From Methylobacterium aquaticum (GTDB lineage: Bacteria > Pseudomonadota > Alphaproteobacteria > Rhizobiales > Beijerinckiaceae), in the NCBI RefSeq assembly GCF_016804325.1, contig NZ_CP043627.1, positions 5,005,001 to 5,069,000 on the forward strand: DNA of 64,000 nt, written 5' to 3'. Positions 1-11,342 of the stretch are shown here, in pieces. Numbering within the stretch: the stretch's first letter is position 1; every line of letters starts with the position of its first letter. The translations under genes were made by a program, and so were the position numbers. The notes beneath the pieces are model-generated. The model did not search any database. It had not been told where the DNA came from and saw only the letters and a program-made list of their open reading frames with translations.

Positions 1-10
1 AGAATGTCGC

Positions 11-2605
11 TCACGCGGTGACCGTGAAGCAGGCGCCGGGGCAATTCTCGACTTCCAGCCGGGCGTTGATCTGGTCGAGCATGGCGCGAACCAGCTTCAT
101 GCCGAGGCCGGTACCGCGGGCGGGGACGTTCTGCCAGTCGACCGGCAGGCCCTTGCCGTCGTCGCAGACCGAGAGCCGCACCCGCCCCTCCGCCTCGCCC
201 GCGACCCGCACGGCGATGCGGCCGCCGGCTTCCGCGAAGGCGTATTTCAAGGCGTTCGTGATCAACTCGGTGGCGATCAGCGAGAGCGCCACCGCCTTGC
301 GGTAGGGCACCATCAGGCCGGGCTCGGCATCGAGGTCGACCGCATGCCCCTCCCCGGCCATGCCGGCGAGATCGGCACAGAGATTCTCGATGGTCTGGCC
401 GAGATCGACCTCCTCGACGCTCTCGGCCTGGTACAGGCTGTCATGGACCCGCGCCACGCTCATCACCCGGGCTGCGGTCTCGGCGAAGGCCGCCTGCGAG
501 GCCGGGTCGGTCACCTGGCGGCGCTGCATCTGCAGGAAGGCCGAGACGATCTGGAGCGAGTTCTTGACCCGGTGGTCGATCTCGCGGGTGAGCAGATCCT
601 TCTGGGTCAGGAGGCGCTCCTTGTCGGCGAGCAGCCCGGTCAACTCGGTGATCTTGCGCTGCTGGCGAAACACCACGCCCTCCACCGCCTGGGCCAGGGC
701 CTCGGCGATGCCGACCTGCCAGGCGGCGAAGGGCTCGGACACGCCGCGGCGCTCCTCGACCCAGCGCTCGAACGAGCGCCGCGGCAGCACCGCCACTGGC
801 CCGCTGCCGGCGAGGACGGGCTTTCGCGGATCGCCGCCCCAGGTGACCGTGCTCGGCATCTCGGGCCGGAACCACAGCAGCAGGTGGCGTCGCTCCGAAT
901 CGACGAAGACCGCGAGCAGCCCGCTCGCGCATTCGGCGAACGGCGCGCTCGGCGGATGGGCGGCGGCGAATTCCGCCGTGGCGTAGCTGGTGCGGTCCGC
1001 CGGCAGGGTAATTCGCAGCCAGGCGGCGATCGCCAGGACCGCCCCGGACGGCGGGGTCCGGCCGAGGCAGCGCACGGCATCATCCGAAACGGTGGCCGCG
1101 CCACCGGCCTCGAACAGGTCGAGCAGGGTATGGGCGTTCTCGGTCAGCGCGCTGACGAAGTCGTCGGAGCGGGCGAGCTCGCGCACCAGCTCGCTCTCCA
1201 GCGCGAGGTGGGCCTGCTGTTCCTGCCACAGGCGCCGGCTCTCGAGTTCGTAGACCCGCATCGCGAAGGCGTCGGCAAGGACGGTGGCGGCGGCACGGGT
1301 TTCGGGCGCGACGTAATGCGGCCGGCGGTGATGGCCGATCATCAACCCCCAGAGCCGCCCCTCGACCAGGATCGAGATCGACATCGAGCCGTTCACGCCG
1401 AGATTGCGCTGATATTCGAGGTGGATCGGCGACAGGCTGCGCGCCTGGGCGAAGGTGAGGTCGACGGGGACGTTCGCGGTCGACGGCGTCGCCACCAGGG
1501 GCACCGGCACGTAGTCGCGGTCGATGACGAAGCGGCTCTTCGACCGGGTGTAGAGGGCCCGGGCCTGCGCCGGGATGTCGGAGGCCGGGAAGTGCAGGCC
1601 GAGCAGGCTGCGGCTCCAGGCCGGATCCTTGTCCTCGGCGATGGCCGCGCCGTTCCAGTCCGGATCGAAGCGGTAGACCAGGATGCAGTCGAAGCCGGTG
1701 AGTGCCCGGGTCTCGCGCGCCGCCACCGCGGCGGCCTCCTCCAGGGTCGCGGCGCCGCGCAGGCGGCTGATGGCGAGTTCGGTGTCGAGCTGGCTCGCGG
1801 AGCGGAAATCCTCCGGATGGGCCGGCGCCAGTTCCAGCTCGACGATGATGCGGTCGCCGTTGCGATGGGCCACGAGTTCCACCGGCAGGCCGTCGGTGGC
1901 GGGCAGCACGAGGCGCTGGCGCAAGGTTCGGCCGGGATCGACGCCGTCACCCTGCAGGGTTTCGCGGATCCGGTCGGCGAGGTCGGTCCCGAGGAGCGCC
2001 GCGAGGTCGAGCCCGAGGGGGTCCCGGTCGAGGGCATCGCGGACGTTGCCGCTGCAGGCCACCACCGTCAGGGTGTCGAGGTCGGCGGCGACCAGGACGG
2101 CGTGGGGCTGGATCGCCCCCGGGATGTGGATCGGCTCCCGCTCGCACAGGCTCGGATCCACCGGCTCGGCCCGCACCCGCTGGCTCACCGCCGCCTGCAC
2201 CGCCTCGCGGCTGTGGCCGTGCTCCAGCGTCTCCACCGGCTCGGTGACGATCCAGTAGCGGTCGGGCAAGGCGGCCTGGCGCAGGGTGATCCGCACCTGC
2301 ATCGGCCGAGGATCGAAGCCGTAGACGAAGGAGAAGGTGTGATCGAGCCGGCCCCGGCGCACGCCCTCCCGGAACCGGCCGTAGAAATGCGGCAGGTGGG
2401 TGCAGGGGGCGACGTCGGTGAAGAAGTTGCGGCCGATCACCCGCTCGGGCGCGCGCCCGGAGAACGCGCTCTCGGCCCGGTTGTAGAGATGGATGATGCC
2501 GCGCCCGTCGATCTGAATCACGCCCTGGCGCAGGCGGTCGAGGTCGTGCGGCGCGAGGGCGTCGAGGTCGATCGTCGGAGCCGTGGTCGGGTCGGGCAGG
2601 GTCAC
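11..2605 (-). CDS. PYP-bacteriophytochrome hybrid sensor histidine kinase (Ppr-like)
   Basis: An 864-residue light-sensing kinase. Residues about 25-125 match photoactive yellow protein: the pocket residues Tyr41, Glu45, Ser49 (Thr in the Halorhodospira protein) and Arg51 are in register, and Cys68 in NFFTDVAPCT is the p-coumarate attachment site. The bacteriophytochrome core follows: Cys154 in LCEREPIHIPG is the biliverdin Cys, PASDIP is at 340-345 in the GAF domain, and PRRSFERW marks the PHY tongue. The output is a HisKA_2 kinase with phospho-His678 (DHRVKNSLQ) and an HATPase domain (ELITNALKYAF, DDGKGLP). The GTG start lies just before the PYP domain. No partner response regulator, heme oxygenase or tyrosine ammonia-lyase is nearby, so both chromophores must come from elsewhere. 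The family resembles Ppr of Rhodospirillum centenum. Domain assignment is confident; photochemistry is inferred. Confidence 0.93.
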   Translation of the reverse strand: MTLPDPTTAPTIDLDALAPHDLDRLRQGVIQIDGRGIIHLYNRAESAFSGRAPERVIGRNFFTDVAPCTHLPHFYGRFREGVRRGRLDHTFSFVYGFDPRPMQVRITLRQAALPDRYWIVTEPVETLEHGHSREAVQAAVSQRVRAEPVDPSLCEREPIHIPGAIQPHAVLVAADLDTLTVVACSGNVRDALDRDPLGLDLAALLGTDLADRIRETLQGDGVDPGRTLRQRLVLPATDGLPVELVAHRNGDRIIVELELAPAHPEDFRSASQLDTELAISRLRGAATLEEAAAVAARETRALTGFDCILVYRFDPDWNGAAIAEDKDPAWSRSLLGLHFPASDIPAQARALYTRSKSRFVIDRDYVPVPLVATPSTANVPVDLTFAQARSLSPIHLEYQRNLGVNGSMSISILVEGRLWGLMIGHHRRPHYVAPETRAAATVLADAFAMRVYELESRRLWQEQQAHLALESELVRELARSDDFVSALTENAHTLLDLFEAGGAATVSDDAVRCLGRTPPSGAVLAIAAWLRITLPADRTSYATAEFAAAHPPSAPFAECASGLLAVFVDSERRHLLLWFRPEMPSTVTWGGDPRKPVLAGSGPVAVLPRRSFERWVEERRGVSEPFAAWQVGIAEALAQAVEGVVFRQQRKITELTGLLADKERLLTQKDLLTREIDHRVKNSLQIVSAFLQMQRRQVTDPASQAAFAETAARVMSVARVHDSLYQAESVEEVDLGQTIENLCADLAGMAGEGHAVDLDAEPGLMVPYRKAVALSLIATELITNALKYAFAEAGGRIAVRVAGEAEGRVRLSVCDDGKGLPVDWQNVPARGTGLGMKLVRAMLDQINARLEVENCPGACFTVTA

Positions 2606-2730
2606 GGCGTTTCCAACGAATCGATGGCCCGGGAGAGTTGCGCCTTCGGCGGCTGATCCGGCACTTTAGAGAACTCCCAGCCTGAACGGAACCGCAACGG
2701 GTGATGGCCCGGCCGTTCCGCGCCGCAATG

Positions 2731-4122
2731 TCACCGGGTACCGCCGGTGCGCTCGGCCACCGCCTTGACCGCGCTCTGGAGGCCCTCCTCCAGGGTCGGG
2801 TGATAGAAGGGCCGGTCGAGGAAGGTCGCGGCATCCCAGCCCTCCTGCACGGCGATCGCCGTGAGATGCGCGAGGTGCTCGACACCCGGCCCGATCATCG
2901 CGGCGCCGGTGATTCGGCCGTCGGGCTCGGCATAGACCCGGATCAGGCCGGCGGCCCGGTCCATCGCCCGGGCGCGGCCCTGGTCGGCGAACGATGTCTC
3001 GCCGATCACCCAGTCGCGGGCCTCCTCCGCGTCGAAGGCCCGGCCGATCGCCGCGATCTGCGGATCGGTGAAGACCAGGGCGAAGGCCGGCCAGGGCGGC
3101 GGCGCCTCGACCTGGGGGAAGCGGGCGGCGTTGCCGCCGGCGATCCAGCCCTGGCGCTGGGCCTCGTGCAGGACCGGATGCTCCTGATTGGCGTCGCCGG
3201 CGATGAAGATCGGGGCGGTGCCGCACTGGAGCGTGCGCGGGTTGAAGTCCGGCAGGCCGTCCTCGTCGAGGGCGAGCCCGGCGGCGTCGAGGCCGAGATC
3301 GGAGAGGTTGGGCGGCCGGCCGGCGGCGGCGAGCACGTGCGCGAAGGTGGCGCTCGTCGTCTCGCCGGAATCGCGGCGCCAGGTCAGCCGTATCCCGTCG
3401 CCCACCGCCTCGGCCGTCTCGACGGTCGCGCCGAGATGCAGCGTGACGTCGGCGCCGATCAGCGCGGCGGCACAGGAAGCGATCTTCGGGTCGCGGGCAC
3501 CGCCGACGGCGTCGGCCGGATCGAGCAGCGTCACCTGGACGCCGAGGCGGGCCATGGCTTGCGCCAGTTCGAGACCGACCGGTCCGGCGCCGAGGACCGC
3601 GAGGGACTCGGGCGGGGTCTCGATCTCGAACAGGGTGTCGGTGGTGAGGACAAGGTCGGCGACTGCCCGCAAAGGGGGCGGGAGGCTCGGGGTCGAGCCG
3701 GTGGCGATCACCACCGCGCCGGCCGCGATCCGGGTGTGGTCGTCGACAACAAGTGTAGTGGGATCGGAGAAGCGGGCGGTCCCGGCGATGCGCAAGTCGG
3801 CGGGGATGCGATCGAGCCCCTCGAAGACCGAGGCGACGAAATCGTCGCGCAACGCCCGCACGCGGTTCATCACCGCCCGGCCGTCGACCCGCACCTCGCC
3901 CGTCGTGACGCCGAACGGCCCGGTTCCGCGGGCGTCGTGGGCGGCGCGACCGGCCTCGATCAGGAGCTTCGAGGGCATGCAGCCGACCCGGGCGCAGGTC
4001 GTGCCTCCGGGGCCGCGCTCGATCAGCACGGCGCGGGCACCGGCCTTGGTGGCCGCGGCGTGGGCGGCGATCCCGGCGGTTCCGGCACCGATGATCGCCA
4101 CGTCGCAGGCCAGTTCACGCAT
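2731..4122 (-). CDS. Dihydrolipoyl dehydrogenase-type pyridine nucleotide-disulfide oxidoreductase
   Basis: A 463-residue FAD flavoenzyme. It has the N-terminal FAD fold (DVAIIGAGTAGIAA), the redox-active disulfide in TTCARVGCMPSK (Cys-x4-Cys), a second NAD-binding fold (LAVLGAGPVGLELAQ), an FAD motif (PIFIAGDAN), and the C-terminal dimerisation domain with the catalytic His-Glu pair in FYHPTLEEG. All active-site residues of dihydrolipoamide dehydrogenase are present. There are no neighbouring 2-oxoacid dehydrogenase genes, so this is probably a paralogue of the housekeeping lpd. The ATG at 4122 has GGGACG a few bases upstream; an in-frame ATG at 4188 would add 22 low-complexity residues and is less likely. 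Mercuric or glutathione reductase is less likely because their extra motifs are missing. Confidence 0.85.
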   Translation of the reverse strand: MRELACDVAIIGAGTAGIAAHAAATKAGARAVLIERGPGGTTCARVGCMPSKLLIEAGRAAHDARGTGPFGVTTGEVRVDGRAVMNRVRALRDDFVASVFEGLDRIPADLRIAGTARFSDPTTLVVDDHTRIAAGAVVIATGSTPSLPPPLRAVADLVLTTDTLFEIETPPESLAVLGAGPVGLELAQAMARLGVQVTLLDPADAVGGARDPKIASCAAALIGADVTLHLGATVETAEAVGDGIRLTWRRDSGETTSATFAHVLAAAGRPPNLSDLGLDAAGLALDEDGLPDFNPRTLQCGTAPIFIAGDANQEHPVLHEAQRQGWIAGGNAARFPQVEAPPPWPAFALVFTDPQIAAIGRAFDAEEARDWVIGETSFADQGRARAMDRAAGLIRVYAEPDGRITGAAMIGPGVEHLAHLTAIAVQEGWDAATFLDRPFYHPTLEEGLQSAVKAVAERTGGTR

Positions 4123-4218
4123 GACTCGTCCCTTCGGGCTGTTCGGCGCGGCAGGAGCGGCGACGTAGCGGATTCGACGCGGGGGCAACTTGCATCGCGG
4201 GCGATTCGTTCCCGCGCG

Positions 4219-5034: not shown

Positions 5035-5910
5035 CTATTCGACGTTCTGGACCTGCTCGCGGAACTGCTCGACCACCGCCTTGAGGTCGAGGCCGATGCG
5101 GGAGAGCGACACGTCGTTGGCCTTGGCGCAGAGCGTGTTGGCCTCGCGGCCGAGTTCCTGGGCCAGGAAATCGAGGCGACGCCCGACGGCACCACCGGTG
5201 GCGAGGAGGTCGCGCGCCGCGGCGAGATGGGCGCGCAGGCGGTCGATCTCCTCGCGCACGTCGGCCCGGGTGGCGAGCAGGACCGCCTCCTGGTGCAGGC
5301 GAGCCGGATCGAAGCCGGCGACCTCCATCAGGCTGGCGACCTGCGCGGCGAGACGAGCCTTCACCGCCTCGGGCCGCCGGGCCGGGCAGGCCTCCGCCGC
5401 CTCGACGAGGTCGGCCATGGTCGCGAGCTGGCCGCCGACGATCTCGTCGAGGGCCCGCCCCTCCGCGCGGCGGACCTCGACCAGGGCCTCGACCAGCCGC
5501 AGGGCGGCCGCCGCGAGGTCGCGGCGCAACGCCTCGTCGTCGGCAGCCTCCTCCTCGACCTCGACCACGCCGCGCAGGCCCAGGAGACCGTCGACGGAGG
5601 GAAGCGTGATGCCGAGCGGCATCGGCACCCGGGTGACCGCCTCGGCGAGGGAGGCGAGCAGCGCCTCGTTGATCCGCACCCGCGGTGCCGATTCGGTCCG
5701 CAACAGGGTGAGGGTCAGGTGGCAGGTGCCGCGACTGATCCGCTTCTGCACCAGGGCACGGGCTTCCTCGCCGACGGCGTCGAGGCCGGTGGGGACCCGG
5801 ACGCGGACCTCCAGCCCGCGGCCGTTGACGCTCTTGAGCTCCCAGGCCCAGTGCGCGGGTCCGGTGGTTCCGGCTTCGCGGGCGAAGCCGGTCATGCTGG
5901 CGATGGACAT
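5035..5910 (-). CDS. yicC: YicC family endoribonuclease-type protein
   Basis: A 291-residue protein of the YicC family, close to the E. coli length of 287. It begins with the hallmark SIASMTGFAR, followed by WELKSVNGRGLEVRVRVP; the C-terminal DUF1732 part contains DFLAQELGREANTLCAKAND and ends near VEQFREQVQNVE. The family acts in RNA turnover and stress survival, and E. coli YicC has been described as an endoribonuclease; that activity is taken from the family here. It lies between mltG and gmk on the same strand, as in most alphaproteobacteria. The ATG has only a weak upstream ribosome site. Confidence 0.93.
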   Translation of the reverse strand: MSIASMTGFAREAGTTGPAHWAWELKSVNGRGLEVRVRVPTGLDAVGEEARALVQKRISRGTCHLTLTLLRTESAPRVRINEALLASLAEAVTRVPMPLGITLPSVDGLLGLRGVVEVEEEAADDEALRRDLAAAALRLVEALVEVRRAEGRALDEIVGGQLATMADLVEAAEACPARRPEAVKARLAAQVASLMEVAGFDPARLHQEAVLLATRADVREEIDRLRAHLAAARDLLATGGAVGRRLDFLAQELGREANTLCAKANDVSLSRIGLDLKAVVEQFREQVQNVE

Positions 5911-6022
5911 CGGGCGCTCTAAGCAGGTTTCATCATGGTGACCGCCGGGTTTTCGCGATGAAGACCCGCGGCACGACAGGAATCCGGGGGCGCCGGCGCC
6001 GGTGCGCCGACGCGTCGTCGGC

Positions 6023-7432
6023 TCACCGATTGCGCGACCCGGGCGTGGCCCCGGGCTGCGACAGGACCGGCACGGTCTTGGGCGAGTTCAGGTCGAACGT
6101 CTTGTTGCGCAGGGGATCGCGGGCAGTCCCCTCCGAGGCGTCGAACGCACGCGAGCGGGCACCCGGATTCGCGTCGCTGCCGTCATAGGCAAGCGGAGCG
6201 CCGGGCAGGCCGGTGCGCGGCGGCAAGCCTGAGGGCAAGGCCGAGGGATCGGCCTGCGGCGGCGGCTCGACCTTGTCGACGCCGACCGTCGAGGCCGGAT
6301 CGGCAGCGGCCTTCGCCTTCTCGACCTGGCGCCAGCGGGCGACGTTGCGGTTATGCGCGTCCAGCGTCTCGGCGAAGACGTGGCCGCCAGTCCCGTCGGC
6401 GACGAAGAACAGGTCCTTGGTGCGCGAGGGGTTCGCCACCGCCTCGAGCGCCGCGCGGCCCGGATTGGCGATCGGTCCCGGCGGCAGGCCCTCGATCGCG
6501 TAGGTGTTGTAGGGCGTCACCCGGTCGATCTCGGAGCGCAGGATGCCGCGCCCAAGGGTGCCGCGCCCGCCGACGAGGCCGTAGACGATGGTCGGATCGG
6601 ATTGCAGCCGCATCCGCTTCTGCAGCCGGTTGACGAACACCCCGGCGACCCGCGGGCGCTCGTCGGCCCGGCCGGTCTCCTTCTCGACGATCGAGGCCAG
6701 GGTGACCATCTCCTGGGGCGTGCGCACCGGCACGTCGGGCGAGCGGCGGGCCCAGATCTGGTTGAGCACCTCGCGCTGCTTGGTGCGCATCAGGTTGAGG
6801 ATCTTCTGGCGCGAATCGCCGCGCTCGAACTTGTAGGTGTCGGGGAGCAGCGAGCCTTCCGGCGGGGTCTCGTTGATGTCGCCGGTGAGGATGTCGTTGT
6901 CGTTGAGGCGGGCGACGATCTGCTCGCTCGTCAGGCCCTCGGGAAAGGTGATGGCGTGCTGCACCGGCCGTCCCTGGACCAGAACGTCGACGACGTCGTC
7001 GATGCTGGCCTGGGCCTTGAAGTTGTACTCGCCGGCCTTCAGCGCCGCCTTGCGGCCGAAGCGGGCGGTCAGCTCGAACAGCATGGGGTGGGCGATCACG
7101 CCCTCGCGCTTGAGGAGTTCCGCCATCTCGCCGACGCTGGAGCGGGGCACCACCACGACCTTGTCGGCGGCCAACGGTCCGGCCTCGTTGGTCTGGCGCT
7201 CCAGCACCACGATGCCCAGGATGGCGCCGAGGCCGAGGATGACGAACAGGGTGAGGAAGCCGCTCACCGCCGAGAGCAGGCCGCCGCGCTCGCGCACCGG
7301 CTTCTCGGGCGGCGGCGGGGCGGCCGTCGGCTTGATGGCCTCGCTCGGGCTGCGCGGGGCGAGCCGGTTCGGCGGGCTGACCGGCTCCGGCGCGCTCGGC
7401 GCCGGATCCTGCGTCTTCGATCTGCGAAACAT
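6023..7432 (-). CDS. mltG: Endolytic murein transglycosylase MltG
   Basis: A 469-residue inner-membrane lytic transglycosylase that cuts nascent peptidoglycan strands. The N-terminal 50 residues are Pro-rich and cytoplasmic, a single membrane helix follows at about 56-77 (LTLFVILGLGAILGIVVL), then a LysM-like part and the YceG catalytic domain. The catalytic Glu lies in LASIVEKETG, followed by the family motifs RVAGVFVNRL, MRLQSDPTIVYG and YNTYAIEGLPPGPIANPG. The C-terminal 70 residues are a low-complexity tail rich in Pro, Ser and Ala beyond the usual domain end. AGGA lies before the ATG. It is encoded between fabF and yicC. Confidence 0.95.
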   Translation of the reverse strand: MFRRSKTQDPAPSAPEPVSPPNRLAPRSPSEAIKPTAAPPPPEKPVRERGGLLSAVSGFLTLFVILGLGAILGIVVLERQTNEAGPLAADKVVVVPRSSVGEMAELLKREGVIAHPMLFELTARFGRKAALKAGEYNFKAQASIDDVVDVLVQGRPVQHAITFPEGLTSEQIVARLNDNDILTGDINETPPEGSLLPDTYKFERGDSRQKILNLMRTKQREVLNQIWARRSPDVPVRTPQEMVTLASIVEKETGRADERPRVAGVFVNRLQKRMRLQSDPTIVYGLVGGRGTLGRGILRSEIDRVTPYNTYAIEGLPPGPIANPGRAALEAVANPSRTKDLFFVADGTGGHVFAETLDAHNRNVARWRQVEKAKAAADPASTVGVDKVEPPPQADPSALPSGLPPRTGLPGAPLAYDGSDANPGARSRAFDASEGTARDPLRNKTFDLNSPKTVPVLSQPGATPGSRNR

Positions 7433-7850
7433 GGCGGTCCTGTCGTGGCGCGTCCGGGGAGCCGGCCGGTGGACGCGCGTGCCGGCCCGATGGGGCGGAA
7501 AGCGACCGAGACCCTAGCAAGTTTTATGGCGAAATGGAGCCGGTGCGGGCCGGAGGCCACAGACGGATAAGCCCCTCCGCGCGGGCGAGAGGGGCTTCAA
7601 TCGAATTTGCGATGCGCTTCGGAGCCAGCGTCCGGTTCGGCCAGCCGTCACTGGCACCCTCCGAGTCATTCCGGGGCCGCGGAGCGGAGCCCGGAATCCA
7701 GACGCTCAGGTAGTGCGGAAAGAGAGGACGCTCCTCGTTTGATCCTGAACCATCAGCGGTTCTGGATCCCGGGCTCCGCTCCGCGGCCCCGGGATGACGC
7801 GGAGGGTGTCAGACCGGACAGCCGATTTCGCCAGGCCCACAAGTGATCGT
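7433..7850. other. Gap between mltG and fabF, mostly a dispersed repeat
   Basis: A 418-base stretch with no convincing gene. Its centre is the inverted repeat listed at 7665-7798. The part near 7433-7530 should hold the mltG promoter region on the minus strand if mltG is not co-transcribed from fabF; I see no clear promoter or terminator. Confidence 0.6.
7665..7798. repeat. GC-rich intergenic inverted repeat (family B)
   Basis: The left arm from 7665 (CATTCCGGGGCCGCGGAGCG onward) and the right arm ending at 7798 (CTCCGCTCCGCGGCCCCGGG then ATGAC) are near-complementary over about 37 bases, separated by roughly 60 bases. Weaker relatives with the same core (CCCGGnATCCA, CGGCnnCGCCGAGCCC) occur near 17890-18010, 19405-19440 and 45415-45460. 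All lie in intergenic DNA, as expected of a REP-like mobile palindrome. Confidence 0.7.
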
Positions 7851-9107
7851 TCACACCCGCCGCAGGATCAGCGACGCGTTGGTGCCGCCGAAGCCGAAGG
7901 AGTTCGACAGGGCGATGTCGACCTTCCGCTTCTGCGCCTTGTGCGGCACGAGGTCGATCGCGGTCTCGACCGACGGGTTGTCGAGGTTGAGGGTCGGCGG
8001 GACGACACCGTCGCGGATGGCGAGCACGGAAAAAATCGCCTCGATGGCGCCCGCCGCACCCAGCAGGTGGCCGGTGGCGGACTTGGTCGAAGACATCGCC
8101 ACGTCGGTGGCGTTGCCGAGCAGGCGCTCGACCGCCTTCAGCTCCAGCTCGTCGCCGAGCGGGGTCGAGGTGCCGTGGGCGTTGATGTAGTCGATCTCGG
8201 AGGGCGTGATGCCGGCGCGCTTCACCGCCGCGCTCATGCAGCGGAAGGCGCCGTCGCCGTCCGGCGAGGGCGAGGTGATGTGGTAGGCGTCGCCCGAGAG
8301 GCCGTAACCGATCACCTCGGCGTAGATCTTGGCGCCGCGGGCCTTGGCGTGCTCGTATTCCTCGAGCACCACCACGCCGGCGCCCTCGCCCATCACGAAC
8401 CCGTCGCGGTCGCGGTCGTAGGGGCGGGAGGCGCGCTGCGGCTCGTCGTTGAATCCGGTGGAGAGCGCCCGGCAGGCGGCGAAGCCCGCGAGCGAGAGAC
8501 GGTTGATCGGCGATTCGGCACCACCGGCCAGCATCACGTCGGCGTCGCCGAGCGCGACGAGGCGCGCGGCGTCACCGATCGCGTGGGCGCCGGTGGAGCA
8601 GGCCGTCACCACGGAGTGGTTCGGGCCCTTCAGGCCGTGGGCGATCGAGACCTGGCCGGAGGCCAGGTTGATGATCCGGCCCGGGATGAAGAACGGCGAG
8701 ATCCGCCGCGGCCCCTTCTCGAACAGCGTCACCGAGGCATCGTAGATGCCGCCGATGCCGCCGATGCCGGAGCCGATGAGGACGCCGGTGGCACATTGGT
8801 CCTCGTGCGAGGACGGGTGCCAGTCGGCGTCGTCGAGCGCCTGGCCGGCCGCCGCCATCGCGTAGACGATGAAGGGGTCGACCTTGCGCTGCTCCTTGGC
8901 TTCCATCCACGTATCGGGATTGAAGGTGCCGTCGCTGCCGTCGCCAAGCGGGATCGAGCAGGCGATCTTGCACGCCAGATCCGACACGTCGAAGGCCTCG
9001 ACGCGGGCGGCACCGCTTTGCCCCTCGATGAGGCGGCTCCACGTGACGTCGACGCTGCTGCCCAGCGGCGACACCATTCCGAGGCCCGTGACGACGACTC
9101 GACGCAT
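7851..9107 (-). CDS. fabF: Beta-ketoacyl-ACP synthase II
   Basis: A 418-residue condensing enzyme that elongates acyl-ACP with malonyl-ACP in type II fatty acid synthesis. It begins RRVVVTGLGMVSPLGSS. The catalytic triad is visible: Cys in VTACSTGAHAIGDA, His in NAHGTSTPLGD and His in KSATGHLLGAAG, and the C-terminus has the Gly-rich NSFGFGGTNASL. The ATG at 9107 matches the family start; an in-frame ATG at 9131 would add eight residues. It is encoded directly after acpP, 63 bases away on the same strand, so translation in step with its carrier protein is likely. Confidence 0.96.
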   Translation of the reverse strand: MRRVVVTGLGMVSPLGSSVDVTWSRLIEGQSGAARVEAFDVSDLACKIACSIPLGDGSDGTFNPDTWMEAKEQRKVDPFIVYAMAAAGQALDDADWHPSSHEDQCATGVLIGSGIGGIGGIYDASVTLFEKGPRRISPFFIPGRIINLASGQVSIAHGLKGPNHSVVTACSTGAHAIGDAARLVALGDADVMLAGGAESPINRLSLAGFAACRALSTGFNDEPQRASRPYDRDRDGFVMGEGAGVVVLEEYEHAKARGAKIYAEVIGYGLSGDAYHITSPSPDGDGAFRCMSAAVKRAGITPSEIDYINAHGTSTPLGDELELKAVERLLGNATDVAMSSTKSATGHLLGAAGAIEAIFSVLAIRDGVVPPTLNLDNPSVETAIDLVPHKAQKRKVDIALSNSFGFGGTNASLILRRV

Positions 9108-9170
9108 CGCGTTATCCCGACCCGATCCCATGACGGAAGCGTTTACCCTAGTGGCTGAGGAACGCGGCGA

Positions 9171-9407
9171 TCAGCCGGCGTTCTTCTCGAGGAACTTGAT
9201 CGCGTCACCGACCGTCTGGATCGTCTCGGCGGCGTCGTCCGGGATCTCGACGTTGAACTCTTCCTCGAACGCCATCACCAGCTCGACGGTGTCGAGGCTG
9301 TCGGCGCCCAGATCGTCGATGAAGTTCGCGTTCGGGGTCACCTTCTCGGGCTCGACGCCCAGGTGATCGACGACGATCTTCTTCACCCGGTCCGCGATAT
9401 CGCTCAT
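9171..9407 (-). CDS. acpP: Acyl carrier protein
   Basis: A 78-residue acidic acyl carrier protein. The phosphopantetheine Ser lies in the invariant [20 protein letters not shown] motif, and the overall pattern ([18 protein letters not shown] at the start, [10 protein letters not shown] at the end) is that of the housekeeping ACP. The start at 9407 is set by homology; an open extension upstream has no ACP character. It sits between fabG and fabF, the standard order. Confidence 0.97.
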
Positions 9408-9654
9408 CGTGTAGATCCTTGAGTTACTGCTCGTGGCACTGTCCGGAGCCGCCGCGTGCGGGCGGAGCCCCGGGGAGAGTCGTGATGCGGCCGGCGCACC
9501 GGTCGCGCATGTCGTGGAAAAGCCGCGGGCGGCCGATCCGTCAATCCCCTCGCACGGCCGGCGGGTGCTTAACACAGGGATTTAGCCCTGGCGAGGGCCG
9601 CTTCACCCCCGGTTAAGAAACCGTGCCTCCTGCCTGGGGAATGTCCATGGAGGC

Positions 9655-10392
9655 CTAGAACATCGCCATGCCGCCGTTGACGTGCAGGGTGTGCCCGGTG
9701 ACGTAGGCCGCCTCGTCGGAGGCCAGATACACCGCCGCCGCGGCGATCTCGGCTCCTTCGCCGAGGCGACCCATCGGCACCGTGGCGAGGATGCCCTCGC
9801 GCTGCTTGTCGTTGAGCACGTCGGTCATCGGCGAGGTGATGAAGCCCGGCGCGATGCAGTTCACGGTGATCTTGCGGCTCGCCACCTCGGCGGCGAGCGC
9901 CTTGGTGAGGCCGACGAGGCCGGCCTTGGCCGCCGCGTAGTTGCCCTGGCCGGCATTGCCGGTCGCGCCGACCACCGAGCCGACATTGACGATGCGGCCG
10001 TAGCGCCGCTTCATCATGCCCTTCACCGCCGCCCGCGACAGCCGGAAGGCCGCCGTCAGGTTCACGGCGATCACGCTGTCCCACTCCTCGTCCTTCATGC
10101 GCAGGAAGAGGTTGTCGCGGGTGATGCCGGCATTGTTGACCAGCACGTCGAGCCCGCCGAGCGCCGCTTCCGCCGCCGGCACCAGGGCCTCGACCGCCGC
10201 GGTGTCGGACAGGTTGGCCTCCAGGACGTGGACGCGCTCGCCGAGCTCGGCGGCCAGCGCCTCCAGGGCCTCGCGCCGCGTGCCGGAGACCGCCACGTGG
10301 GCGCCCTGAGCGTGGAGCGCCCGGGCGATGGCGCCGCCGAGGCCGCCGGTGGCGCCGGTGACGAGGGCCTTGCGGCCGCTGAGATCGAACAT
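9655..10392 (-). CDS. fabG: 3-oxoacyl-ACP reductase
   Basis: A 245-residue short-chain dehydrogenase that reduces 3-ketoacyl-ACP with NADPH. It has the cofactor motif TGATGGLGGAIA, NNAGITRDNLFLRMKDEEWD (a FabG signature), the catalytic Ser in NVGSVVGATGNAGQGNYAAA with Tyr-x3-Lys (YAAAK), and a typical C-terminal HVNGGMAMF. It begins 14 bases after fabD ends, so the two are surely one transcript. The flanking fabD and acpP distinguish it from the many other SDRs. Confidence 0.96.
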   Translation of the reverse strand: MFDLSGRKALVTGATGGLGGAIARALHAQGAHVAVSGTRREALEALAAELGERVHVLEANLSDTAAVEALVPAAEAALGGLDVLVNNAGITRDNLFLRMKDEEWDSVIAVNLTAAFRLSRAAVKGMMKRRYGRIVNVGSVVGATGNAGQGNYAAAKAGLVGLTKALAAEVASRKITVNCIAPGFITSPMTDVLNDKQREGILATVPMGRLGEGAEIAAAAVYLASDEAAYVTGHTLHVNGGMAMF

Positions 10393-10406
10393 GCGAAAAC
10401 TCTTTC

Positions 10407-11342
10407 TCAGAGCGTGAAGGCCGCGACCTCGGCCGAGGTGCCGACCGGCGTGGCGCTGGTCCCCGCCGCGATGCGCTTGACGAGGCCCGACAGCACCTTG
10501 CCGGTGCCGATCTCATGGAAGGTGTCGACGCCGGCGGCGGCCATGGCGGCGACGCATTCGCGCCAGCGCACGGTGCCGGTGACCTGCTCGACGAGGGCGG
10601 TGCGGATCGCCGCCGGATCGGTGATCGGGGCGGCGAGGACGTTCGCCATCACCGGCACCTTGGCGGGGTGAAGGGCGACGGCGCCAAGCGCCTCGCGCAT
10701 CGCTTCCGCCGCGGGCGCCATCAGGCTGCAATGGAAGGGCGCGGAGACGTTGAGCATCACCGCGCGCTTGGCGCCGCGGCCCTGCGCCAGGGCGACCGCC
10801 CGCTCGACCGCCGCACGGTCTCCCGACACCACGACCTGGCCGGCGCCGTTGTCGTTGGCGACATCGCAGACGTCGCCCTGGCGGGCTTCCGCGGCGACCT
10901 CGGCCGCCGCCTCGACGTCGAGGCCGAGCAGCGCCGCCATGGCGCCGGAGCCCACCGGCACCGCCTTCTGCATCGCCTCGCCGCGCAGGCGCAGGAGCCG
11001 CGCCGTATCGGCCAGCGACAGGCTGCCGGCGGCGGCGAGCGCGCTGTACTCGCCGAGCGAGTGGCCGGCGACGTAGGCCACGTCCCGGGCCAGATCCAAG
11101 CCGCGCTCGGCTTCCAACACCCGCAGCACCGCGATGCTGGAGGCCATCAGGGCCGGCTGGGCATTGGCCGTGAGGGTCAGCTCCTCGGCCGGGCCCTCGA
11201 ACATCAGGCGGGACAGGTTCTGGCCCAGGGCCTCGTCCACCTCGGCGAAAACGGCGCGAGCGGCGGCGTGGTCCTGGGCCAGGGCGGAGCCCATGCCGAC
11301 GGCCTGGCTGCCCTGGCCCGGAAAGATGAAGGCGCGCGACAC
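10407..11342 (-). CDS. fabD: Malonyl-CoA:ACP transacylase
   Basis: A 311-residue transferase that loads malonyl from CoA onto ACP. It has the oxyanion-hole motif FPGQGSQAVGMG near the start, the nucleophile Ser in VAGHSLGEYSAL, Arg in LLRLRGEAMQ and the catalytic His in SAPFHCSLM. The start is GTG with AGGAAG about a dozen bases upstream. It is the first gene of the minus-strand cluster fabD-fabG-acpP-fabF-mltG-yicC-gmk, so a promoter should lie within 11343-11550. Confidence 0.96.
   Translation of the reverse strand: MSRAFIFPGQGSQAVGMGSALAQDHAAARAVFAEVDEALGQNLSRLMFEGPAEELTLTANAQPALMASSIAVLRVLEAERGLDLARDVAYVAGHSLGEYSALAAAGSLSLADTARLLRLRGEAMQKAVPVGSGAMAALLGLDVEAAAEVAAEARQGDVCDVANDNGAGQVVVSGDRAAVERAVALAQGRGAKRAVMLNVSAPFHCSLMAPAAEAMREALGAVALHPAKVPVMANVLAAPITDPAAIRTALVEQVTGTVRWRECVAAMAAAGVDTFHEIGTGKVLSGLVKRIAAGTSATPVGTSAEVAAFTL

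Follow-up and report, generated by a model that had tools for sequence, protein, structure and literature searches.

In the Ppr of R. centenum (Rhodocista centenaria), a photoactive yellow protein (PYP) domain is followed by a bacteriophytochrome and then by a kinase (PMC2993699), and the maxima of the holo-protein are cited as 425 (PYP), 400, 642 and 701 nm (PMC2993699). The Ppd of Thermochromatium tepidum (PYP-phytochrome-GGDEF/EAL), likened here from published descriptions, also has an N-terminal PYP fused to a bacteriophytochrome. Methylobacterial Ppr have been published as well (PMC9664959, PMC12826048): a 2025 review counts 37 PYP-Phy-kinase and 15 PYP-Phy-GGDEF/EAL proteins and finds PYP-phytochrome proteins chiefly in Methylobacteriaceae and Chromatiaceae (PMC12826048), and many methylobacterial Ppr have Cys69 substituted, Methylobacterium sp. 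Leaf123 being a published example of the degenerate form (PMC9664959). Here, we analysed a stretch of 64,000 nucleotides from Methylobacterium aquaticum (contig NZ_CP043627.1, positions 5,005,001 to 5,069,000; hereafter the window), in which the ppr gene occupies 11..2605 on the minus strand as a frame open for 864 amino acids with a GTG start. The host genome comprises 7.28 Mb in five contigs and is 99.99% complete. The window Ppr has the domain order of the R. centenum protein and ends in a HisKA_2 kinase, in contrast to the cyclic di-GMP (c-di-GMP) output of Ppd, and it is probably a working two-chromophore sensor kinase for red and blue light.

Domain architecture and chromophore sites of Ppr

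The preliminary description of this DNA, made from its letters without database searches, had read the frame as a PYP domain fused to a bacteriophytochrome kinase with a HisKA_2 output, and Pfam, the TIGR02373 match and the matches to the structures 1mzu and 4r70 bear this out. In a single chain, PYP is followed by PAS-GAF-PHY and a histidine kinase, with the Pfam domains PAS 23-107, PAS_2 154-259, GAF 288-450, PHY 468-649, HisKA_2 675-747 and HATPase_c 772-863. The gene and its parts are placed as follows:

11..2605, minus strand: ppr, encoding the PYP-bacteriophytochrome-HisKA_2 kinase (864 amino acids, GTG start; Pfam, NCBIfam and structure matches)
2243..2566, minus strand: PYP domain (residues 14-121) with the pocket Y41, E45, S49, R51, C68, Y95, P99 (alignment)
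2402..2404, minus strand: Cys68 codon, expected p-coumaroyl thioester site (sequence, alignment)
2144..2146, minus strand: Cys154 codon, expected biliverdin-binding cysteine (C in 17/17 intact loci, own included, and in 73/73 degenerate loci)
1256..2146, minus strand: PAS_2 and GAF chromophore-binding module (residues 154-450; Pfam)
659..1204, minus strand: PHY domain with the PRxSF tongue motif (residues 468-649; Pfam, residue check)
17..583, minus strand: HisKA_2 (His678) and HATPase_c kinase output (residues 675-863; Pfam, residue check)

The NCBIfam model photo_yellow (TIGR02373) matches residues 20-120 (E 2.9e-35, 121.1 bits). Among solved structures, 1mzu comes nearest to the PYP part (E 3.6e-38; named PPR by its depositors); it is the PYP domain of the R. 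centenum Ppr (PMC9664959), and other PYP entries follow at 1.7e-28 and weaker; the match to 1mzu fixes the predicted fold of the PYP part. The phytochrome part matches bacteriophytochrome structures, the best being 4r70 (E 2.6e-93). Against the PhyK model, the kinase part reaches E 8.2e-37 with 127 bits, far below the cut-off of 750. HisKA_2 kinases often feed PhyR, and the resemblance to PhyK may be a weak pointer to the general stress response. P0036, which like the R. centenum Ppr is of the Met100 type, differs from the window Ppr in carrying HisKA (PF00512) instead of HisKA_2. On the opposite strand, a frame of 770 amino acids (344-2656, plus strand) had no Pfam match up to E 0.01; it was rejected as a gene, and we put it down to high-GC coding.

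The N-terminal bilin cysteine, Cys154, is present as described earlier and lies within CEREPIHIPGAIQP. With it stand D343, H395, H425 and the PRxSF tongue (608-612), which we take to be the GAF/PHY signature residues, and the bilin site is intact by sequence. In the PYP domain, alignment pairs the pocket residues (window/H. halophila numbering) as Y41/Y42, E45/E46, S49/T50, R51/R52, C68/C69 and P99/M100, exactly as first listed, with Ser for Thr50 and Pro for Met100; a further change, Tyr95 at H. halophila Phe96, had gone unmentioned. Comparisons between proteins below use the H. halophila numbers. The window Ppr has the Cys69, with Tyr42 and Glu46, on which the definition of the PYP family is based (PMC9664959), and the PYP domain of R. 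centenum Ppr (1mzu) shares its Tyr42, Glu46, Ser50, Arg52 and Cys69 but has Met100 and Phe96 where the window Ppr has Pro and Tyr. Since absorption near 434 nm is recorded for the two PYPs with Ser50 that have been characterised (PMC12826048), the blue maximum is expected near 430-435 nm rather than at the 450 nm first proposed.

Intact and degenerate Ppr in Methylobacterium

PYP-family matches were found in 92/111 Methylobacterium genomes (E up to 1e-8) and in 17/199 genomes sampled from the family (E up to 1e-10). Such hybrids had been called rare and mostly a matter of purple bacteria, a view that does not hold against these genus counts and the 2025 review; the window Ppr belongs to a known type of light-sensor kinase that is not rare. 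It is the only PYP-family match of its own genome. Its nearest named PYP domain is that of M. frigidaeris (94% over 133 amino acids), with further relatives in M. aquaticum, M. nonmethylotrophicum, M. platani, M. tarhaniae, sp. DB0501, M. ajmalii, M. indicum, M. terricola and M. crusticola, after which come three Myxococcota genomes at 39-43%.

All 101 PYP-family matches of the genus besides the window's own were read, and they comprise 17 intact Ppr, 73 degenerate Ppr and 11 stand-alone PYPs. The pocket Y-E-S-R-C-Y-P (positions 42, 46, 50, 52, 69, 96 and 100) is found in 18/18 Ppr of the window's clade (its own and the 17). In contrast, Glu46 and Cys69 are both absent from 73/73 degenerate Ppr, in which position 46 is Ala (71) or Gly (2), position 69 is Gly (40), Ser (29) or Ala (4), and Tyr42 survives in 6. 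The PYP pocket is thus nearly all-or-none within Methylobacterium Ppr. The two groups have in common the genus, the domain order, Pro100 (68/73 of the degenerate Ppr) and frequent neighbours, a dihydrolipoyl-dehydrogenase gene (DLD) and a heme oxygenase gene. Cys154, Asp343, Tyr311, His395, Tyr398, His425, the PRxSF tongue, His678, Asn784 and Asp815 are kept in 17/17 intact (own plus 16) and 73/73 degenerate Ppr; Asp815 is the kinase G1 Asp of DxGxG, and the variation sits at the neighbouring position 816. One intact genome (G253), whose Ppr frame was covered only in part, was left out of the codon, residue and tree work, and its PYP part was read. Judged from these residues, the red-light module and the kinase are kept in the degenerate clade while the blue-light site is lost.

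A FastTree tree was built from the phytochrome-kinase part only (108 proteins, rooted on P0036). All 24 proteins with Y-E-S-R-C-Y-P fall into one clade (support 0.849), and all 75 degenerate proteins (the 73 loci plus P0028 and P0035) form its sister clade (support 0.994). The intact clade was first picked by its pocket, and the tree, blind to the pocket, regroups the same proteins (24/24); because of that first picking, we put no weight on the P values calculated for an invariant pocket (0.004 with seven positions, 0.016 with eleven). Ppr of the Roseomonas, Belnapia and metagenome types, which lie outside both clades, retain Y E S R C F, and their position 100 is Pro in P0020, P0030, P0032 and P0038 and a gap in P0022, P0024 and P0026. 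Since Pro100 is also found outside the two Methylobacterium clades, these alignments place Met100Pro before the origin of the genus. The Ser and Pro changes first pointed out keep their standing as possible tuning residues; Pro100 as a peculiarity of the window protein was rejected, as it occurs in degenerate, metagenomic, Roseomonas and Belnapia Ppr. Tyr96 was seen only in the intact Methylobacterium clade. Taken together, the tree and the residues suggest, as the simplest reading, a single pocket loss on the stem of the degenerate sister clade.

Two other cases of a changed pocket stand out. In Microvirga arabica (P0037), Glu46 is replaced by Leu and Cys69 by Ala, with Tyr42 and Arg52 kept, apparently a loss separate from that of the degenerate clade. 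A far-diverged set with the pocket A-A-L-x-G-L-x (L175, L181, L183, L184 and L185, in genomes G214, G210, G269, G279 and G276) lacks an adjacent DLD or heme oxygenase match and is a second Ppr in G269, G279 and G276.

DLD gene and probable heme oxygenase gene beside ppr

Two neighbouring genes could be placed at the ends of ppr:

1..14, minus strand: presumed start of a heme oxygenase gene (codons for M S D I), which shares 4 bases with the ppr stop and continues beyond the window
2731..4188, minus strand: DLD gene, upstream of ppr (CARVGC motif; NF004939 548.5 bits, cut-off 435)

In published operons, DLD is said to be "always" in the methylobacterial ppr operon and heme oxygenase "always" near PYP-phytochromes (PMC9664959). 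In our survey, heme oxygenase adjoins 71/90 other Ppr loci (14/17 intact, downstream, and 57/73 degenerate), and DLD, counted at 50% identity or more over 400 amino acids, adjoins 15/17 other intact and 61/73 degenerate Ppr; some of the misses lie at contig ends or beside sequence that was not covered. Counter to the published "always", DLD and an adjacent heme oxygenase are both missing from two intact loci (L099 and L100, in G241 and G242) whose surroundings were fully covered. In the tree, the nearest protein to both is the Ppr of Methylobacterium sp. 4-46 (P0015). Each of the two genomes has a heme oxygenase match at another place, and in G241 ppr still follows yicC- and gmk-like genes (by eye). 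Beyond DLD in the window, the upstream genes, also named by eye, are gmk-, yicC-, mltG- and fatty-acid-synthesis-like; the last are fabF-, acpP-, fabG- and fabD-like genes at 7851-11342 on the minus strand, upstream of the mltG/yicC/gmk-like genes and ppr.

In six intact relatives (G294, G223, G211, G206, G261 and G202), the first codon of heme oxygenase overlaps the stop codon of ppr (GTGA), and the frame encodes V-S-D-I-L-E-R-L-R. On the minus strand the window closes with GTGAGCGACATTCT, enough for V-S-D-I plus two bases of the next codon, and these 14 bases match the six relatives; in further relatives the overlap is the same but the protein begins differently. A heme oxygenase gene thus probably lies directly downstream of ppr. 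The preliminary description had called for a search for heme oxygenase in the genome, and this search gave no PF01126 match in the sequence covered, in which the stretch directly after ppr was not included; the empty result means little for that reason, and the probable gene start at the window edge stands beside it. Absence of heme oxygenase from the genome was rejected, given the unsearched stretch, the gene present there in 14/17 intact loci and the matching codons at the window end.

A second bacteriophytochrome is encoded in the same genome (PHY match at G000:C1:4874202-4874750; locus L203, about 5261-9278). Behind it lie a response regulator gene and a gene for a HisKA/HATPase/receiver-domain protein.

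Proposed two-chromophore mechanism

The reading of the window Ppr as a red/blue sensor kinase is supported because the pocket is invariant in all 18 intact Ppr, the bilin and kinase residues are kept, and heme oxygenase adjoins most of the intact loci. Starting from the observed domains, residues, clade conservation and 14-base heme oxygenase fit, we infer a holo-protein in vivo, with its colours, its recovery and a coupling of PYP to phytochrome. Biliverdin from the heme oxygenase probably encoded directly downstream would attach to Cys154 and give red/far-red sensing, and p-coumaroyl-CoA would load Cys68 to give a blue-absorbing PYP with a predicted maximum near 430-435 nm (Ser50). Met100 mutants of H. 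halophila PYP recover slowly, and recovery of the window PYP is perhaps slow through Pro at this position. The state of PYP would tune the phytochrome, which would set the activity of the HisKA_2 kinase (His678); in R. centenum Ppr the photoactivated PYP domain reportedly speeds phytochrome recovery, as the title of a study has it. For the source of p-coumarate, we lean to uptake of plant hydroxycinnamates and loading by a feruloyl-CoA-synthase-like (Fcs-like) or other general ligase, not to own synthesis.

Supply of p-coumarate and alternative explanations

The results that weigh against this reading begin with the supply of p-coumarate, for which the preliminary description had proposed a search for tyrosine ammonia-lyase (TAL) and p-coumaroyl-CoA ligase (pCL) genes. 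No tyrosine or phenylalanine ammonia-lyase was found in the genome sequence searched, in which the single PF00221 match is HutH (TIGR01225, 696.9 bits, cut-off 539.15; near a HutD gene). PF00221 is matched in 18/18 intact and 5/70 degenerate-only genomes; eight more genomes with a match have no counted Ppr (G222, G244, G249, G258, G262, G268, G271 and G298). HutH was rejected as a sign of own p-coumarate synthesis, as it passes the histidine-lyase cut-off, has HutD nearby and belongs to a family also matched in genomes without a counted Ppr; its presence is taken as following the clade rather than the pocket.

Nor did the PYP-type p-coumarate:CoA ligase (TIGR02372) reach its cut-off in the window's own genome as searched (best 67.1 bits, cut-off 334.7). 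When the best 15 candidates per genome were scored, a PYP-type ligase at E 1e-30 or better was found in 0/18 genomes with intact Ppr and in 11/111 genus genomes, exactly the 11/11 with a stand-alone PYP (Fisher P 2e-15, with non-independent genomes treated as independent); these 11 ligases are all at 1e-67 or better and none is above the curated cut-off. The stand-alone PYP (Y-E-A-L-C-L-M) has Tyr42, Glu46 and Cys69 in common with the window Ppr and differs in having no phytochrome, Leu52, Leu96, Met100 and a PYP-type ligase in each genome. At each of these small stand-alone PYPs (L153, L156, L157, L160, L167, L170, L174, L176, L177, L178 and L182), the PYP-type ligase gene lies 1-2 kb away, and 7/11 of their genomes also carry a degenerate Ppr.

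Lack of a p-coumarate pathway in the genome was half of what the preliminary description had named as speaking against itself, and neither TAL nor a PYP-type ligase was found in the sequence searched. This counts for little, because TAL and pCL are infrequent in published pyp operons (only 5% and 32%; PMC12826048) and the relatives keep the pocket unchanged. The same survey leaves both enzyme sources open and mentions p-coumarate uptake as a possibility, and the genome paper of R. centenum makes no mention of ammonia lyase, coumarate or heme oxygenase.

The 24 AMP-binding proteins of the genome were scanned with NCBIfam (25 best families each), and no hydroxycinnamate ligase exceeded a cut-off, in a scan that would miss general acyl-CoA ligases with hydroxycinnamate activity. 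One of them, L079 (C1:4064486-4065568), is a candidate loader of PYP. Its best model is PRK12582 (704 bits, below the cut-off of 777), it has no relative in the PDB at 1e-20, and among its best 120 of 7994 matches, relatives at 83-91% identity in Methylobacterium sp. SyP6R, terrae, terricola, tarhaniae, variabile, platani and sp. Gmos1 are named feruloyl-CoA synthase, while that of M. crusticola (80%) is named carboxylic acid reductase. Fcs enzymes accept p-coumarate. Of these hosts, SyP6R, terrae, terricola, tarhaniae and platani are assigned to the intact set; this apparent link of the ligase to the intact clade consists of names among the best 120 of 7994 matches and follows phylogeny. A MarR gene near L079 weakly matches the Saro_0803 model (95.5 bits, cut-off 200), and it gives no support to a p-coumarate role, because Saro_0803 tells resveratrol, to which it responds, apart from p-coumarate (PMC10046596). 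A second candidate ligase is L081 (G000:C1:942560-943306; gene at C1:942170-943306), a short AMP-binding protein near PRK08308 (506.8 bits, cut-off 513) that sits at the genome's best, weak TIGR02372 match.

These results bear on an explanation that we think unlikely, in which the conserved pocket holds a ligand other than p-coumarate (ferulate, caffeate or a non-covalent one) and the protein is a chemical or chemical-plus-light sensor. The absence of TAL and PYP-type ligase matches beside an Fcs-like ligase would suit it, as would the clade-wide Tyr96 and Pro100, which alter the pocket; no PYP with Pro at 100 or Tyr at 96 was found described in the available passages of the PYP literature, a further point against the two-chromophore sensor. 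Against another ligand stand Tyr42, Glu46, Ser50, Arg52 and Cys69, identical to those of 1mzu, which binds p-coumarate (PMC9664959). The narrower proposal that the bacterium makes no p-coumarate of its own and that the blue half of the sensor is charged only with plant hydroxycinnamates, the Fcs-like ligase making the CoA ester of plant p-coumarate or ferulate as sole loader of Cys68, strikes us as decidedly improbable. If true, the kinase would signal light and contact with a plant at the same time, and the single, all-or-none disappearance of the pocket in the sister lineage would be explained by this supply having been lost there.

The remaining points against a working two-chromophore sensor concern the PYP domain itself. 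The TIGR02373 score of 121.1 bits is below the curated cut-off of 143.05, which 0/111 genus genomes pass; since the model was built on only four PYP seeds (PMC9664959), this does not exclude membership under the Cys69 definition. Median omega is 0.29 (PYP), 0.23 (PAS2-GAF) and 0.25 (PHY) among intact Ppr, against 0.44, 0.31 and 0.39 among degenerate ones, as pairwise Nei-Gojobori counts over related, non-independent pairs, with dS differing between the clades. The intact PYP value, near those of its two phytochrome modules, speaks for the sensor. Relative to its own PHY, the omega of PYP is 1.14 and 1.18 times, about equal in both, so that conservation of the PYP domain alone is no proof of chromophore use. 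The difference between intact and degenerate Ppr lies in the pocket and not in overall rate. Simple decay does not describe the degenerate PYP domain, which may serve a different function, as has been suggested for part of these domains (PMC9664959).

It is very unlikely, in our estimate, that the phytochrome alone works and that the PYP domain of the window Ppr is an unloaded vestige heading for the condition seen in the sister clade. The 73 sister loci without Glu46 and Cys69 throughout, and the lack of a dedicated p-coumarate loader among the ligases found, would agree with it; against it, all seven pocket residues are kept in every intact Ppr at PYP identities that fall to 65% within the 17 compared, so that the pocket is not kept merely through near-identity of the copies. 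A redox-sensing role conferred on the PYP domain by the DLD next door, put forward for some of the methylobacterial Ppr (PMC9664959), fits the adjacency of the two genes in the window and in most other intact loci but deserves hardly any credence here, as the Cys42/Cys50 pair is absent from the window Ppr and is found in only 16/73 degenerate loci, against 61/73 with DLD beside them, so that DLD need not owe its presence to the pair and the redox proposal is weakened.

Implications

The near all-or-none split of the pocket in Methylobacterium Ppr, and Phe96Tyr as a mark of the intact clade, are details added to the published picture; in the open-licence PMC literature we found no paper on this split save PMC9664959, whose figure 3 and data sets may already show it. 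The intact clade also makes it testable how PYP is loaded in bacteria where neither TAL nor a PYP-type ligase is found. Taken together, Methylobacterium Ppr offers a natural experiment, in which one lineage keeps the full PYP pocket and its sister has lost it while the phytochrome and kinase residues are kept in both, and this pair makes testable what the PYP half adds to the phytochrome.

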